From contig JAUXQT010000003.1 of assembly GCA_030682135.1 (NCBI GenBank), positions 1 through 64,000 on the forward strand: a DNA stretch of 64,000 nucleotides. The letters are read 5' to 3'. Numbering within the stretch: position 1 is the first letter of the stretch; each line of letters begins with the position of its first letter. Below the pieces are notes generated by a model, which was not told the DNA's origin, did no database searches, and was given only the letters and a program-made list of their open reading frames with translations. Made by a program: the position numbers and the translations under genes. The stretch is from Nitrospirota bacterium. Lineage in GTDB: Bacteria; Nitrospirota; Nitrospiria; Nitrospirales; Nitrospiraceae. Positions 4,297 to 11,883 of the stretch are shown piece after piece.

Positions 4297-4426
4297 CCCC
4301 TCGATCAGGCCCATTTCCAGCCTGCGTTCCCTCGACAAGACTCTTGATCTTATGCTAGCTTACGCGCTCATTTTCGCCTGAGAACTCTCGCGGATTCGCG
4401 TGCGATCTGAGGAGACGGGGGCTGGT

Positions 4427-5845
4427 ATGTTCAAGAAGATTCTGGTGGCCAATCGCGGCGAAATCGCCATGAGGATTATTCGCGCCTGCCGCGAATTGAA
4501 CATCGCCACTGCCGCCATCTATTCCGAAGCCGATTCGACCGGTATCTACGTCAAAAAGGCGGACGAAGCCTACATGGTCGGTCCGGGACCGGTCAAAGGC
4601 TTCCTGGATAGCCAACAGATCGTCAGTCTGGCCCAACGGATCAGCGCCGACGCCATCCATCCGGGCTACGGATTTCTCTCGGAAAACTCGAAATTTGCGC
4701 AACTGTGCCAAACCTCCGGTATTACCTTCATCGGCCCATCGCCGCACGCCATCGATTTAATGGGCAGTAAGGTCAACGCCCGCGACCTCGCCAAGCGAGT
4801 GGGCGTTCCCATCGTCCCCGGCACCGAAGGCGGCGTCACCGACGTGAACGAGGCCTTGGCCTTTGCGAAAGCCACTGGGTATCCCGTCATCATTAAAGCC
4901 AGTGCAGGCGGAGGAGGACGCGGCCTCCGGGTCGTCCGATCCGACGCAGAACTCCGTGAGAACATGGCGGTGGCTTCTCGGGAAGCACAAGCATCGTTCG
5001 GCGATGGCAGCGTCTTCCTCGAAAAATATATCGAACGGCCGCATCACATCGAATTCCAGATCCTGGCCGACAAACACGGCAACATGATCCACCTGGGCGA
5101 GCGCGATTGCTCGATCCAACGCCGGCATCAAAAGCTCATCGAAATTGCCCCCTCGTTGATCCTGACGCCGAAGCTGCGCGCCGAAATGGGCGCAGCGGCC
5201 ATTACGATTGCCAAAGCGGTCGATTATGACAATGCCGGCACGGTTGAGTTCCTGCTCGACCAGGACGGCCATTATTACTTCATGGAGATGAACCCTCGAC
5301 TCCAAGTCGAACATACGGTGACCGAGCAGATCACCGCGATCGACATCGTGCGCAATCAGATCGCCATTGCCGCGGGCCTGCCTCTGGAGATCACACAGCA
5401 GGAAGTCACGCTCCAGGGCCATTCCATCCAATGCCGCATCAATGCCGAAGACCCTAAGAACAACTTTATGCCCTGCACGGGCACCATCACCGCCTATCTC
5501 TCGCCGGGCGGGATCGGGGTACGCATCGACGGAGCGGTCTACAAAGACTATACGGTGCCGCCCTACTACGACGCCCTCTTGGCTAAACTCACCGTCCGTG
5601 GCCGTACCTGGGAAGAAACCGTCAGCCGGATGAGACGGTCGCTCGAAGAATATGTCCTGCGCGGGGTGAAAACCACGATCCCCTTCATGAAAGAAATCAT
5701 GCAGGAGCCGGATTTCATGGCGGGCCGTTTCGACACGTCCTATCTCGAGACGCATCCGGACCTGTTCAACTACCACGATTTCGAACAACCGGAGGACCTG
5801 GTGTTGGCGCTCTCCGCTGCCATCGCCGCCTACGAAGGGCTGTGA
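4427..5845 (+). CDS. pycA: Biotin carboxylase subunit (pyruvate carboxylase subunit A), 472 aa
   Basis: This subunit carries out ATP-dependent carboxylation of biotin with bicarbonate, the first half-reaction of biotin-dependent carboxylases. The start at 4427 (MFKKILVANRGEIAMRII) follows GAGGAGACGGGGGC; the track start nine codons earlier lacks family homology. The N-terminal preATP-grasp domain, glycine-rich ATP loop (KASAGGGGRGLRVV), MEMNPRLQVEHTVTE and the C-terminal biotin carboxylase domain are all present. The length matches AccC. The adjacent partner is a carboxyltransferase-biotin carrier protein of pyruvate carboxylase type, with no accB/accD here. I therefore call it the A subunit of a two-subunit pyruvate carboxylase, which would supply oxaloacetate. 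AccC remains an alternative name. Confidence 0.93.
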   Translation: MFKKILVANRGEIAMRIIRACRELNIATAAIYSEADSTGIYVKKADEAYMVGPGPVKGFLDSQQIVSLAQRISADAIHPGYGFLSENSKFAQLCQTSGITFIGPSPHAIDLMGSKVNARDLAKRVGVPIVPGTEGGVTDVNEALAFAKATGYPVIIKASAGGGGRGLRVVRSDAELRENMAVASREAQASFGDGSVFLEKYIERPHHIEFQILADKHGNMIHLGERDCSIQRRHQKLIEIAPSLILTPKLRAEMGAAAITIAKAVDYDNAGTVEFLLDQDGHYYFMEMNPRLQVEHTVTEQITAIDIVRNQIAIAAGLPLEITQQEVTLQGHSIQCRINAEDPKNNFMPCTGTITAYLSPGGIGVRIDGAVYKDYTVPPYYDALLAKLTVRGRTWEETVSRMRRSLEEYVLRGVKTTIPFMKEIMQEPDFMAGRFDTSYLETHPDLFNYHDFEQPEDLVLALSAAIAAYEGL

Positions 5846-5900: not shown

Positions 5901-7853
5901 ATGGCGACACGACGACCTACAAAAAAACAGGCACCCAAGAAACGAGCGGCAGCACCAGCCGTCCGGACGTCAAAAACCCGTGCCAAGGTTAGCCCCGAGT
6001 TGACCATCCAACCGGCAACCGGCAAGCCCATCCTGCTCACCGAAGTCGCCTTGCGCGATGGCCATCAGTCGCTGCTGGCCACACGCATGCGGACAGAGGA
6101 CATGCTGCCTATCGCCCAGAAGCTCGACGCCGTCGGCTATTGGTCGCTCGAAGTCTGGGGCGGCGCCACCTTCGACACCTGCCTCCGCTTCCTCAAAGAA
6201 GATCCCTGGGAACGGCTGCGCGCACTGCGTGCCGCCATGCCCAACACCAAATTGCAAATGCTGCTCCGCGGACAGAACCTGGTCGGCTATCGGCATTATG
6301 CCGACGATGTCTTGGAGCGGTTCATCGAACGGTCCGCCACCAACGGCATCGACGTCTTCCGCATCTTCGACGCCCTGAACGACATCCGCAACATGGAGCG
6401 GGCGATGCGCGAAGTGAAGGCCTGCGGCAAACATGTCGAAGCCGCCATCAGCTATACCGTCAGTCCCGTCCATAGTGTCGACCGTTTCGTCGACATGGCG
6501 AAAAAACTGGAAGACTTGGGCACCGATACGCTCTGCATCAAAGACATGGCCGGACTCTTGGAGCCACTCGAGGCCTATCACCTCATCCGCCGGATCAAGG
6601 CAGCCGTAAAGGTCCCGATCCATTTGCATTCGCATTACACCTCGGGAATGGCCTCGATGACCTCCTTCATGGCGATCCTGGGCGGTCTCGACATGCTGGA
6701 TACGTCCATCTCGCCATTGGCCGGCGGCACCTCGCACCCGGCGACGGAAACCCTGGTGGCCTCGCTGCGGAACACGCCGTACGATACGGGGCTGAACCTC
6801 GTGTCGTTTCTCCCGATCACCGAACATTTCCGCACCGTGCGACGAAAGTATCGGCAGTTCGAAAGCGAGTTCACCGGCGTCGATGCCGAAATCCTCTCCT
6901 CGCAGATTCCCGGCGGCATGCTCTCCAATCTCGCGGCGCAACTGACCGAACAGAATGCGCTCGATCGGATCAAAGAAGTCCTGGATGAAGTCCCGCGCGT
7001 CCGCAAGGAAATGGGCTATCCCCCGCTCGTGACCCCCACGAGTCAGATCGTCGGCACCCAGGCCACGCTGAACGTGCTGACGGGCGAACGGTACAAAGTC
7101 ATCACCACGGAAACCAAGAACTATTTCCTCGGACTGTACGGCAGAGCGCCGGGACCGCTCGATCACGACATCATGGCCCGGGCGATCGGGGACGACCAAC
7201 CGATCAAAACGCGGCCCGCCGATCGACTGGAGCCTGAACTCGAAGCCATCAAAAAAGATCTGCCGGCCTCGGCCACCACGGTGGAAGACCAGCTCTCGTT
7301 CACGCTGTTCCCCGCCATCGCGCGGGACTTCTTCGACGCACGCGAGAAGGGGGATCTGACGCTGGCGCCCCTCGAAAGTTTCTCGCCCAGTGGCCCGGCG
7401 ACAGCCACCGAACTCCATTTGGCCCCCGCCGAATTCAACGTCACGGTCCACGGCGAAACCTATCATGTGAAGGTGTCCGGTTCCGGGAGAAAGGTGGACG
7501 GGCGCAAACCTTACTATATCCGCGTGAACGACAAACTCGAAGAAGTCTCGCTGGAACCCATTCAAGAGATCCTGGCCGGCGTGCCGGAGGCTCCTGACAG
7601 CGGCACCAGCGCCAAACGTAAACGGCCCAGACCGTCCAAGCCGGGAGACGTCGCCCCTCCGATGCCGGGCCGCGTCGTCAAAATACTGGTGGCGGCGAAT
7701 GCCGCGGTGAAGGCCGGCGATCCCCTGCTGATCATCGAGGCCATGAAAATGGAAAGCCAGGTCCCTGCGCCGATCGACGGGACCGTCACCGCCATTCTGG
7801 TCGTAGAAGGCGACAACGTGAAGACGGATGAAACAGTCATCCAGCTGGAATAG
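5901..7853 (+). CDS. pycB: Pyruvate carboxylase subunit B (carboxyltransferase plus biotin carrier), 650 aa
   Basis: The protein transfers CO2 from carboxybiotin to pyruvate. A basic Ala/Lys-rich N-terminus (~30 aa) precedes the HMGL-like TIM barrel, opening LTEVALRDGHQSLLATRMRT. The barrel contains PIHLHSHYTSGMASM metal-site residues and DTSISPLAGGTSHPATET. A PYC/OADA conserved domain follows, then a Pro/Lys-rich linker (KRKRPRPSKPG), then a biotinyl domain with the EAMKMES signature (biotin lysine about residue 616). The alternative, the alpha subunit of oxaloacetate decarboxylase, is less likely because the beta/gamma membrane subunits are absent and a biotin carboxylase is adjacent. The gap to pycA is 55 bases, so an operon is likely. 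Confidence 0.93.
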   Translation: MATRRPTKKQAPKKRAAAPAVRTSKTRAKVSPELTIQPATGKPILLTEVALRDGHQSLLATRMRTEDMLPIAQKLDAVGYWSLEVWGGATFDTCLRFLKEDPWERLRALRAAMPNTKLQMLLRGQNLVGYRHYADDVLERFIERSATNGIDVFRIFDALNDIRNMERAMREVKACGKHVEAAISYTVSPVHSVDRFVDMAKKLEDLGTDTLCIKDMAGLLEPLEAYHLIRRIKAAVKVPIHLHSHYTSGMASMTSFMAILGGLDMLDTSISPLAGGTSHPATETLVASLRNTPYDTGLNLVSFLPITEHFRTVRRKYRQFESEFTGVDAEILSSQIPGGMLSNLAAQLTEQNALDRIKEVLDEVPRVRKEMGYPPLVTPTSQIVGTQATLNVLTGERYKVITTETKNYFLGLYGRAPGPLDHDIMARAIGDDQPIKTRPADRLEPELEAIKKDLPASATTVEDQLSFTLFPAIARDFFDAREKGDLTLAPLESFSPSGPATATELHLAPAEFNVTVHGETYHVKVSGSGRKVDGRKPYYIRVNDKLEEVSLEPIQEILAGVPEAPDSGTSAKRKRPRPSKPGDVAPPMPGRVVKILVAANAAVKAGDPLLIIEAMKMESQVPAPIDGTVTAILVVEGDNVKTDETVIQLE

Positions 7854-8820
7854 CTCCCTTCACGACAGCCCGGCGCCACCACCTCGCAGCGCTCGTACCT
7901 GGCTGCGCACTTCGCTCATAGGCCTGTCGCTCATGCTGACTGCTTGCACGTCTCCCTCTTCCTTGCCTCAGTGGTTCGACGCCCTCGGGCGACTCCCGGT
8001 CAACAGCGTTACGGTCCAGGGTCAACGCATAGCGTACCTCGACGTGGGACAGGGGCCGCTCGTCCTGCTCCTCCATGGATTCGGGGGCTCGATGTGGCAG
8101 TGGGAACATCAACAAGCGGCGCTCTCCGCCCATTTCCGCGTGATTACTCCAGACCTGGTCGGCGCAGGGCTGTCGGACAAACCGGATATCGAGTACCGGC
8201 CGGATCAACTGCTGGCCTTTCTCGTGGGCTTCATGGATGCGCTCCATATTCCTCAGGCCAGCGTGGTGGGGAACTCCATGGGAGCCGGACTCGCCATCGG
8301 ACTGGCCCTCGACCACCCGACACGCGTCTCACAGCTTATCCTGATCGATGGACTCCCGGCTCATGTCATGGAACACCTGGCCAGCCCCTCGCTTCGTCGC
8401 GCCTTAACCACCAGCACCCCATCCTGGCTGGTCTCGTTCGGCAATTGGCTCTTTGGAGGCCTGATACTCGAATCCACGCTGCGTGAATTCGTCTACGATC
8501 CGGCCCTGTTGACTCAAGCCGTTCTGGACCGCTCCAACCATAACCGCCAGCAGCCAGGACTCTTCCGGGCCCTCCTCACGATCGGCACCAATCTCCCGCT
8601 GTGGGAACGACACTTCGCGCCACGCATCGGGACCATCACCCACCGTACGTTGATTGTATGGGGCGAGGAAGACCGCGTGTTTCCCCTCCCGGCCGGCGAC
8701 CAACTCCATCGAGCGATTACCGGCTCGACGTTCGTGACAATTCCTAAAGCAGGCCACATTCCTCAGTGGGAACAGCCTGAGGTCGTGAACAAGGCGCTCC
8801 TGGACTTTATGAGGCCCTAG
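7828..8820 (+). CDS. Lipoprotein alpha/beta hydrolase, 330 aa
   Basis: This is an alpha/beta-fold hydrolase anchored as a lipoprotein. A long basic N-terminus precedes LIGLSLMLTAC, which fits a lipobox with Cys as the acylated residue. Fold signatures are LLHGFGGSMWQWEHQ (oxyanion loop), VVGNSMGAGLA (nucleophile serine in GNSMG), IVWGEEDRVFPL (acid) and IPKAGHIPQWEQP (histidine). The substrate is unknown; esterase or haloperoxidase-like chemistry is plausible. The start at 7828 overlaps pycB by 26 bases. No better start is seen before the hydrophobic segment, so translational coupling is likely. Confidence 0.85.
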   Translation: MKQSSSWNSSLHDSPAPPPRSARTWLRTSLIGLSLMLTACTSPSSLPQWFDALGRLPVNSVTVQGQRIAYLDVGQGPLVLLLHGFGGSMWQWEHQQAALSAHFRVITPDLVGAGLSDKPDIEYRPDQLLAFLVGFMDALHIPQASVVGNSMGAGLAIGLALDHPTRVSQLILIDGLPAHVMEHLASPSLRRALTTSTPSWLVSFGNWLFGGLILESTLREFVYDPALLTQAVLDRSNHNRQQPGLFRALLTIGTNLPLWERHFAPRIGTITHRTLIVWGEEDRVFPLPAGDQLHRAITGSTFVTIPKAGHIPQWEQPEVVNKALLDFMRP

Positions 8821-8882
8821 CCACACCAACATAGGCCACAGGACCGCGCGACAATGCGTACGGTTGTCTTACCAAGGAGAAC

Positions 8883-9545
8883 ATGATGAGGTCAGCATTT
8901 CGAACAGTCATCGGCGCCACAATCTGCCTGACGATCGGGCTTACCGGATGCGGGAGTACCGGAAGCGGGACCAGTTTTCTCTACAAGAACCTCACCGTCG
9001 CAGATGGCAGCACCATGGCGGGTGAAGGCCATACTGTCCTCTTCAAGGGAAGCCCCCTGGTTCTCTCGGGAACCGGCATTAAAGTCGGCGATCCTCTCCG
9101 GGAGGTCAAACTGACACAGACGGATCTCTCGCAGATCAACATCACCGACACCAAGGGCAAGGGCAAGGTCCGGATCATCAGCGTCGTGCCGTCGCTGGAC
9201 ACGAAAGTCTGCGAGCAACAAACCCATTTTCTAAGCGAGAAGAATAAAGGGCTGGACAAGCTCATCGAGCTGATCACCGTCAGCATCGATACGCCCTTCG
9301 CCCAAAAGCGATTCGCGGAAGAGGCCCATATCACCAACGTGACGTTCCTCTCGGATTATCGAGGCGCCGAATTCGGAAAGACCTTCGGACTCTTCCTCAA
9401 GGACCCCCACATCCTGGCGCGCACCGTCATGGTCATCGACGCCCACAACCACGTGCGGTATCTGCAAATCACGCCCGAGCTGGCCCAACTGCCGGACATG
9501 GATGAAGCGTTTGCGGTGGCAAAGTCACTGATCACGGCCAGCTAG
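8883..9545 (+). CDS. tpx: Lipoprotein thiol peroxidase (Tpx/peroxiredoxin family) lacking the resolving Cys, 220 aa
   Basis: The peroxidase reduces hydroperoxides through a peroxidatic cysteine. The family signatures are ISVVPSLDTKVCEQQTHFLS (peroxidatic Cys), SIDTPFAQKRF and ARTVMVIDAHNHVRY. Two features are unusual. The protein has an N-terminal lipoprotein signal (ICLTIGLTGC), whereas Tpx is normally a ~165-aa soluble protein. In classical Tpx the FAQ.RFC motif carries the resolving cysteine, but here the sequence reads FAQKRFAEE. No other cysteine exists in the mature domain apart from the lipid-anchor Cys. The enzyme must use an external thiol or act as a 1-Cys type. AAGGAG precedes the double ATG. 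Confidence 0.88.
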   Translation: MMRSAFRTVIGATICLTIGLTGCGSTGSGTSFLYKNLTVADGSTMAGEGHTVLFKGSPLVLSGTGIKVGDPLREVKLTQTDLSQINITDTKGKGKVRIISVVPSLDTKVCEQQTHFLSEKNKGLDKLIELITVSIDTPFAQKRFAEEAHITNVTFLSDYRGAEFGKTFGLFLKDPHILARTVMVIDAHNHVRYLQITPELAQLPDMDEAFAVAKSLITAS

Positions 9546-9564
9546 GCCAAAAAATGGTGCGGTC

Positions 9565-9675
9565 GAAGTTCAGGCCAAGGCCAAGATGTTCGCGGTTCAG
9601 CGTTCGAGGTTTTAGAACTTCGAACCTGAAACCTCGAACTGTTCTGTCGAAGCCTGAACCTCGGCCTCACCCGTT
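9565..9675. repeat. Inverted heptamer-periodic repeat upstream of sthA
   Basis: In 7-bp register the arm reads TTCGCGG, TTCAGCG, TTCGAGG, TTTTAGA and is answered by ACTTCGA, ACCTGAA, ACCTCGA. The word GTTCGAGGTTT occurs opposite its complement AAACCTCGAAC. The element fills almost the whole tpx-sthA gap, ending just before the sthA ribosome binding region. Confidence 0.7.
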
Positions 9676-9690
9676 GCAGATAGGACTCTG

Positions 9691-11094
9691 ATGGCGCAAT
9701 ACGACATGCTGGTGATTGGAACCGGCCCGGCGGGCCAGAAGGCGGCGGTCCAGGCCGCCAAGCTGGGCAAAAAAGTCGGCATCATCGAACGCAAAGAGGT
9801 CCTCGGCGGCGTCTGCACGAACACCGGCACCATCCCCAGTAAATCCCTCCGCGAGGCGGTTCTCTATCTCTCGGGGTTCCGCCAGCGCACCCTGTACGGA
9901 GCCGGCTATCGACTGAAAGAATCGATCACGATCGAAGATCTCGCCTTTCGCGCCAACCACGTCATCAAGAACGAAATCGAGATCGTGCGAAACCAGATGG
10001 CCCGCAACGGCATCGATCTGCTCCACGGAGAAGCCCGTTTCCTCGATCCGCACCGGCTCCTCATTCAACGGGCCGGCACGTCGACGGAACATCGGGCGCA
10101 TGTCATCGTGATCGCGGTGGGGACAGAGCCGGCGAGGCCGGCCGACATTCCCTTCGACGATCGCACGATCATCGATACCGACGGCCTCCTCACGCTCACA
10201 CACCTTCCAACGTCGATGGTCATTGTCGGAGGCGGCGTCATTGGAACGGAGTATGCCTCGATCTTAGCGGCGATCGGTGTGCCGGTCACCCTGATCGACA
10301 AGCGGCCGCGCTTGCTGGAGTTTGTCGACGCGCAGATCATCGAGGCCTTGCAGCAGCAGATGACAAACCTCGGCGTCACACTCTGTCACGAAGAAGAAGT
10401 GGTCTCCATCCGGAAAGAATCCGATGGACAGGTCACGGTCTCGCTGGCACACCGGCCGCCGATCGCCACCACAACGCTCATGTATGCCATCGGCCGCGTC
10501 GGCGCCACGAAACCCTTAAACCTCACATCCATCGGCATCACGCCGGATGCGAGAGGCCGCATCGTCGTGAACGAGCATTTTCAAACATCCATCCCCCATA
10601 TCTACGCGGCCGGAGACATCATCGGGTTTCCCGCTCTGGCCTCCACCTCCATGCAACAGGGGCGTCATGCCGCTTGCCATGCCTTCGGCCATCCAGACCG
10701 TACGGACACGGGCCTCCTCCCCTATGGCATCTACGCCATTCCTGAAATCTCCATGGTCGGGCGAACCGAGGAAGAGCTGGAGAAGGCAGAGACTCCCTAC
10801 GCGGCCGGCATCGCACATTATCGTGAAATTGCCCGCGGACAGCTCATCGGCGATGAAACCGGCATGCTGAAGCTGCTCTTTCACCGCGAGACCCATGCGC
10901 TCCTGGGCGTCCATGCCATCGGAGAAGGGGCCACAGAGCTCGTGCACATCGGCCAGGCCGTCATGGCCTATCGGGGCAAGATCGACTACTTCATCGATAC
11001 AGTCTTCAACTACCCGACCCTGGCGGAATGTTATAAAGTCGCCGCACTGGACGGCATCAATCGATTGCCGAGACCCTGGCCGTCGCACGAGTGA
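9691..11094 (+). CDS. sthA: Soluble pyridine nucleotide transhydrogenase (Si-specific), 467 aa
   Basis: This flavoprotein interconverts NADPH + NAD+ and NADP+ + NADH in the cytosol. The FAD Rossmann motif (YDMLVIGTGPAGQKAAVQAAK) is followed by EVLGGVCTNTGTIPSKSLRE. The disulfide motif CxxxxC of lipoamide dehydrogenases has become CTNTGT with a single Cys, which is characteristic of SthA rather than dihydrolipoamide dehydrogenase. A second nucleotide-binding motif (SMVIVGGGVIGTEYASI) and the C-terminal dimerisation domain (YGIYAIPEISMVGRTEEEL) are present. The length matches the family. The stop codon lies inside the start of a heptamer repeat. Confidence 0.93.
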   Translation: MAQYDMLVIGTGPAGQKAAVQAAKLGKKVGIIERKEVLGGVCTNTGTIPSKSLREAVLYLSGFRQRTLYGAGYRLKESITIEDLAFRANHVIKNEIEIVRNQMARNGIDLLHGEARFLDPHRLLIQRAGTSTEHRAHVIVIAVGTEPARPADIPFDDRTIIDTDGLLTLTHLPTSMVIVGGGVIGTEYASILAAIGVPVTLIDKRPRLLEFVDAQIIEALQQQMTNLGVTLCHEEEVVSIRKESDGQVTVSLAHRPPIATTTLMYAIGRVGATKPLNLTSIGITPDARGRIVVNEHFQTSIPHIYAAGDIIGFPALASTSMQQGRHAACHAFGHPDRTDTGLLPYGIYAIPEISMVGRTEEELEKAETPYAAGIAHYREIARGQLIGDETGMLKLLFHRETHALLGVHAIGEGATELVHIGQAVMAYRGKIDYFIDTVFNYPTLAECYKVAALDGINRLPRPWPSHE

Positions 11095-11214: not shown

Positions 11215-11883
11215 ATGTCTTTTACAAATCACTTGAGACAACTCGCCACACCCATCTGGGACGCCCAACTCACCCATCCATTCGTCGTGGCGTTGGGCAA
11301 GGGGACCTTGCCGGAGCGCAAATTCAAGTACTACATCCTGCAAGACGCCAGGTTTCTCGGCGACCTGGCCCGCGTGTTTTCTGCCGGAGCGATGAGAGCG
11401 CCTGATTCAGAAACGGCGCTGCGGCTCACGAAGCTCGCAGAAGAAACCATCGTCGTCGAACGGAGCCTCCACGAAGGATATGGATCGCGCTGGAAGATGA
11501 GCGCCAAGGACATGTCGTCCGTATCTATGGCACCGACAAACTTTGCCTACACCAGGCATATGCTGACCGTCGCGCATACAGGCTCGGTCGCGGAGGTCAC
11601 CGTCGTCGCCCTCCCCTGCGCCTGGATCTACTGCGTCGTCGGACAGCATTTATTGAAGAACGGACCTCCGTCTAAGAATCACCCCTATCGCGACTGGCTC
11701 ATGCTCTACGCCTCGCCGGAATTTGCAGAAGTGCAGCAATGGATGCGCAAGAAAGTGGACCAGTGGGCCAAGACCGCGGGGAAGGAAGAAAAGCGGCGCA
11801 TGGAAGAAGCGTTCATCATCAGCTCGCGGTATGAGTGGATGTTTTGGGAGATGGCGTGGAACGAAGAGAAGTGGCCGGTGTGA
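11215..11883 (+). CDS. tenA: TenA-family thiaminase II / aminopyrimidine aminohydrolase, 222 aa
   Basis: Most TenA proteins salvage the thiamine pyrimidine (aminopyrimidine to HMP) by hydrolysis. Family features are the N-terminal TPIWDAQLTHPFVVALGKGTL, LPERKFKYYILQDARFL, the catalytic Cys in VALPCAWIYCVVG, and the C-terminal acid/aromatic motif SSRYEWMFWEMAW. The HMP kinase thiD lies ~4 kb downstream on the same strand, consistent with pyrimidine salvage, though the two are not in one operon. CAAGAGG precedes the start codon. Some TenA homologues have other amine-metabolising roles, so the exact substrate is inference. Confidence 0.9.
   Translation: MSFTNHLRQLATPIWDAQLTHPFVVALGKGTLPERKFKYYILQDARFLGDLARVFSAGAMRAPDSETALRLTKLAEETIVVERSLHEGYGSRWKMSAKDMSSVSMAPTNFAYTRHMLTVAHTGSVAEVTVVALPCAWIYCVVGQHLLKNGPPSKNHPYRDWLMLYASPEFAEVQQWMRKKVDQWAKTAGKEEKRRMEEAFIISSRYEWMFWEMAWNEEKWPV

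Follow-up and report, generated by a model that had tools for sequence, protein, structure and literature searches.

How would a predicted envelope thiol peroxidase be recycled that is devoid of the resolving cysteine of its family? This question is raised by a tpx-like gene in the window (the whole 64,000-nucleotide stretch of Nitrospirota DNA that was analysed), which a first-pass annotation made from the sequence alone had placed at 8883-9545. An open reading frame of 220 amino acids is indeed found there, on the + strand. The second ATG, at 8886, is the likelier true start, given the N-termini of most relatives and an AAGGAG at 8874-8879 that resembles a ribosome-binding site; this would remove a single Met only and leaves the reading of the product as a 1-Cys lipoprotein unchanged. 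A sigma-70-like promoter was looked for upstream of tpx and none was found. The gene and the parts of its predicted product are the following:

8883..9545, + strand: tpx-like gene for a predicted lipoprotein thiol peroxidase (open reading frame, 220 aa; start possibly 8886)
8883..8951, + strand: predicted lipoprotein signal peptide (residues 1-22) and lipobox Cys23 (LTGC, Gly at +2), from the sequence; box common to 71/71 clade members
8952..9032, + strand: N-terminal extension (residues 24-50, FxYK...V..GxGEG), conserved in the alignment, residues 31-50 predicted to be ordered
9033..9530, + strand: Tpx peroxiredoxin domain (residues 51-216), from profile matches and the match of the predicted fold to Tpx structures
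9189..9212, + strand: active-site motif PSLDTKVC (residues 103-110) with Thr107 and peroxidatic Cys110, from the alignment; motif as in PMC5302317
9315..9317, + strand: Ala145 (GCG) in place of the resolving Cys, within helix 138-148, from the alignment column and predicted secondary structure
9420..9422, + strand: catalytic Arg180, invariant in 56 sequences

Membership of the Tpx family, as originally proposed, is borne out by the Tpx model NF001808 (144.3 bits, cut-off 123), and the closest solved structures by sequence are also Tpx. An AlphaFold2 model of the protein (mean pLDDT 90.8), in which C110 lies near the start of helix 108-119, has S. aureus Tpx as its top PDB match in Foldseek (3p7x_B, TM-score 0.94 by target, for a predicted model). 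The protein has a fold, a PSxDTxVC motif, a Thr/Cys/Arg triad and an AxxRF helix in common with E. coli Tpx, S. aureus 3p7x and A. aeolicus 2yzh. The Tpx active-site motif PS(I/L/V)DTx(V/T/I)C with its catalytic Arg, and the AxxR(F/W)C resolving motif of helix alpha-3 described for 4930 Tpx, are documented (PMC5302317). However, whereas known Tpx structures have their resolving Cys in this helix (PMC5302317), the window protein has an Ala there and, in addition, carries a lipobox and a conserved extension at its N-terminus. The resolving motif has become AQKRFA, and the first-pass reading of an Ala for the Cys of FAQKRF-C proved accurate, since the Tpx alignment gives A145 and shows a Cys neither at this position nor elsewhere in the mature protein other than C110 and the lipobox Cys.

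The complete set of cysteines consists of C15 in the signal peptide and C23 in the lipobox, both within TICLTIGLTGC, and C110 in PSLDTKVC, which leaves the peroxidatic Cys as the sole one in the mature domain, as had been noted from the start. Another Cys acting as the resolving one was considered and rejected: the mature domain offers none, and of the other two, C23 would carry the lipid and C15 would be lost with the signal peptide. The protein therefore displays the peroxidatic Cys and the missing resolving Cys of the 1-Cys class. Judging from its motifs and alignment, it is related to Tpx by descent without being an atypical 2-Cys Tpx, and it is expected to act as a 1-Cys enzyme. The predicted lipoprotein signal was also recognized correctly, LTGC23 being found behind a hydrophobic stretch. 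A mis-called start, with translation from M45 yielding a cytosolic protein, was rejected since, unlike M45, the lipobox and residues 30-50 are conserved; in the AlphaFold2 model, residues 31-50 of this clade-specific extension have a pLDDT of 88-97.

How widespread is this arrangement? Homologues from relatives and from 296 Nitrospirota genomes were used, their frames being extracted and aligned; near relatives were the only matches in the scan of genome contigs, and the sample outside Nitrospirota consists of plasmids and is thin. Lipoprotein Tpx were found 71 times in the class Nitrospiria, invariably without the resolving Cys and with a single Cys in the domain (71/71 for both), the resolving position being occupied by Ala save for Ser in L014 and L094. 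Lipoboxes were called by a pattern rule and inspection by eye, which account for 67 loci (including L001, the window's own gene) and four loci (L163, L168, L169 and L171), respectively; in L193, the lipobox is a few residues off the position expected by the rule. None of the 48 Nitrospirota Tpx with a resolving Cys has a lipobox. Both kinds occur together in three genomes (G206, G220 and G289), so the lipoprotein is there a separate paralogue rather than an in-place replacement. What the first-pass annotation had seen as a single oddity is thus, as far as the aligned sequences tell, a conserved trait of the whole clade of predicted exported proteins. Eight columns, including T107, V109, C110 and R180, are invariant among 56 lipoprotein, Sec-exported and signal-less Tpx, and the tpx-like gene is under purifying selection (dN/dS 0.09-0.17 versus six congeners). 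A chance loss of the resolving Cys was rejected in view of these dN/dS values and of the same state in the 71 lipoprotein homologues.

A maximum-likelihood tree calculated with the resolving column left out places all the exported Tpx sampled (lipoprotein, Sec-exported Nitrospirales and Vibrio plasmid) in one clade (SH-aLRT 100, branch 0.58). On this tree, export arises once but there are five changes of the Cys state, several signal-less lineages (L095-L098, L105, L186 and Vibrio tpx1, which has Val) having also lost the resolving Cys. Export and loss are perfectly associated in the sample, yet both fall on a single branch, and the independent-pairs test meets a single origin of export on the tree. 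Since the association rests on one event, it does not demonstrate causation; from their distribution on the tree, the two look like one ancient step.

The Sec-exported Nitrospirales paralogue (L046, L047, L099-L102 and L104), about 35-45% identical, lacks both a lipobox and the resolving Cys; its N-terminus is Sec-like. Its motif is PQLNTPVC, with Asn replacing Asp and Gln replacing Ser, its AxxRF helix has diverged, and it falls below the Tpx cut-off where scored. Vibrio plasmids carry tandem tpx genes (L144, 3453-4567; L145, 3444-4561), neither of which has the usual resolving Cys: Val takes its place in the signal-less copy, and Ile in the exported copy, where there is a single Cys. The exported protein, a 'peroxiredoxin' (WP_095573347; L144, 3959-4567), resembles the window protein in its predicted export, its single domain Cys and the replacement of the resolving Cys, here by Ile, and belongs to the same clade, but it has a Sec-like signal without the lipobox of the window protein, and is encoded just downstream of the second, signal-less Tpx. 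The signal-less Tpx that lost the resolving Cys independently have Leu (L095-L098, Nitrospirota family f15), Val (L105) or Met (L186) in its place. Some signal-less Tpx without the usual resolving Cys carry other cysteines; in the f15 group, FTC(T/V)D contains one more Cys, which might resolve instead.

The genes surrounding tpx are these:

4400..5845, + strand: biotin carboxylase / pyruvate carboxylase subunit A-like gene (PycA-like), named by inspection; synteny
5901..7853, + strand: pyruvate carboxylase / oxaloacetate decarboxylase subunit B-like gene (PycB-like) with a biotinyl domain, named by inspection; synteny
7828..8820, + strand: alpha/beta hydrolase, itself with a lipobox (LTAC); PF00561; synteny
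9691..11094, + strand: SthA-type NAD(P) transhydrogenase; NF003585, 634 bits; synteny
11215..11883, + strand: TenA family protein; TIGR04306, above cut-off; synteny

The order PycA-like, PycB-like, hydrolase, Tpx, SthA-like and TenA is kept in most Nitrospiraceae loci examined, and the neighbourhood also occurs in a genome of another family (G037) and partially in G057. The hydrolase gene (7828-8820) begins before the PycB-like gene ends, and its pairing with tpx is conserved. The SthA-like flavoprotein was considered as a reductase for Tpx and rejected, since the second redox Cys is missing from its GGVCTNTGT and the model that it matches is that of the transhydrogenase. In G206 (L128), a glutathione-peroxidase-like gene immediately precedes the lipoprotein tpx.

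Where could the electrons come from? The genome, which is 99.96% complete, encodes one DsbD_TM/CcdA protein (G000:C81:150594), whose gene is found beside that of a CGPC TlpA/ResA-like protein (134 bits with the NCBIfam ResA model, below the cut-off of 170), and there are three further exported TlpA-like genes (L134, L138 and L139). The CcdA-TlpA locus is unlinked to tpx and adjoins genes that inspection identified as ResB/CcsA-like, of the kind that acts in cytochrome c maturation, so it may serve this process only. DsbA is present and VKOR was not found in the genome. As for other peroxide defences, neither heme catalase (PF00199) nor a KatG-type enzyme (PF00141) was found in the genome, which leaves peroxiredoxins and the cytochrome c peroxidases that are present.

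The reading that seems, on balance, the probable one is an envelope-anchored 1-Cys Tpx peroxidase, the sulfenic acid of which would be reduced by a CcdA-fed TlpA/ResA-like protein. The pre-protein is predicted to be exported, lipidated at Cys23 and to face the periplasm, with a probable outer-membrane placement since Gly, not Asp, follows the lipobox Cys. Cys110, activated by Thr107 and Arg180, would reduce H2O2, organic peroxides or peroxynitrite, being converted into a sulfenic acid. Because there is no resolving Cys, an internal disulfide cannot form; an external dithiol, most likely that of the periplasmic TlpA/ResA-like protein, would attack this sulfenic acid directly, and CcdA would recharge the donor from cytoplasmic thioredoxin. 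We infer the location, the peroxidase activity and the identity of the reductant, as well as the link of CcdA-TlpA to Tpx. The earlier expectation of an 'unusual reductant' holds only in part: CcdA next to a TlpA/ResA-like CGPC protein is a kind of donor that has precedents in Caulobacter (PMC5403849) and pneumococcus (PMC3914529). Against this main reading, cytochrome c peroxidases already provide periplasmic peroxide removal.

By analogy, the nearest functional precedent is the ScsB-TlpA-PprX pathway of Caulobacter crescentus, also cited in PMC9144841, in which electrons flow from ScsB, a membrane reductase of the DsbD family, to the TlpA-like protein and on to PprX, a peroxiredoxin of the envelope (PMC5403849). 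A TlpA-like protein and a DsbD-family membrane reductase are both encoded in the genome, the latter being CcdA here instead of ScsB. The Etrx1/Etrx2-CcdA-MsrAB2 system of S. pneumoniae has thioredoxin-like lipoproteins that are fed by CcdA and in turn recharge a repair enzyme outside the cytoplasm, but this terminal enzyme is a methionine sulfoxide reductase rather than a peroxidase (PMC3914529). The 1-Cys peroxiredoxins Prx6 and AhpE similarly combine one catalytic Cys with an external reductant; they are, however, of other subfamilies by sequence, the window protein matching Tpx best.

The same enzyme might be recycled in the periplasm not by a TlpA-like protein but by sulfide (H2S) or a small thiol, either cysteine or one taken up from neighbours. 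Small thiols are often accepted by 1-Cys peroxiredoxins, and an active site left open by the absence of a resolving Cys would permit their entry. This is nevertheless an unlikely route, if one to be kept in view, since a search of this genome and 12 congeners for GshA-type glutamate-cysteine ligases (PF04262, PF04107) found none. Glutathione, which the first-pass annotation had named for an assay, is for this reason unlikely to be the donor in vivo; PF04107 is present in two genomes of another family. Somewhat less probable is a peroxide sensor or thiol relay, in which the Cys110 sulfenic acid would oxidise a partner envelope protein with no bulk scavenging. Peroxiredoxins offer a precedent (PMC6753162), the lipid anchor would set the protein beside its partners and the N-terminal extension, ordered in the predicted model, could be a docking surface, but the conserved neighbourhood contains neither a regulator nor an obvious Cys partner. 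There is slightly less still to recommend a scheme in which the peroxidatic Cys of neighbouring molecules resolve each other and the TlpA-like protein reduces the intermolecular disulfide: the E. coli Tpx resolving-Cys mutant C95S crystallised in this form (PDB 3hvx) and membrane crowding would favour it, but 3hvx is an engineered mutant of E. coli Tpx. Finally, the loss of a usually conserved catalytic residue could betray a decaying or inactive paralogue, which is very improbable given the invariant T107, C110 and R180, the purifying selection and the retention of the gene across Nitrospiria together with its neighbourhood.

If the protein is indeed an envelope peroxidase served by CcdA-TlpA, what would it mean for its hosts? 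Tpx without a resolving Cys have already been noted in subfamily surveys. The fold, motif and chemistry are those of known Tpx. It is the exported 1-Cys clade that seems not to have been described before: no description of a lipid-anchored or exported 1-Cys Tpx clade was found in the literature searched, many subscription papers being outside that search. Few periplasmic peroxidases are known (PMC9144841), and thiol peroxidase function in an oxidising compartment has been little explored. The nitrite oxidiser N. defluvii is without classical catalase and superoxide dismutase (PMC8115632); this, the conservation of the gene across the order and a genome in which neither heme catalase nor KatG was found imply that the envelope Tpx could be a real part of peroxide defence. 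Tentatively, and as a proposition somewhat more doubtful than the main reading, secretion and loss of the resolving Cys may have been coupled in an exported Tpx branch, giving a lipid-tethered, CcdA-TlpA-run enzyme that would be a major periplasmic defence against peroxide and peroxynitrite in Nitrospira, hosts in which no GshA-type ligase, heme catalase or KatG was found. A predicted lipid-anchored peroxidase is encoded by nitrite-oxidising Nitrospira and related bacteria; having lost the second cysteine of its cytoplasmic cousins, it must have a different recharge route, and the automatic annotation 'thiol peroxidase' hides such exported members with a different recycling mechanism.

Between tpx and sthA (window 9546-9690) lies a long palindromic hairpin (MFE -65.9 kcal/mol, z -6.6) for which no Rfam match was found. 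Similar hairpins are present 3' of tpx in >10 relatives and are missing or replaced in others; this element may be a terminator or else a mobile palindrome of small size.
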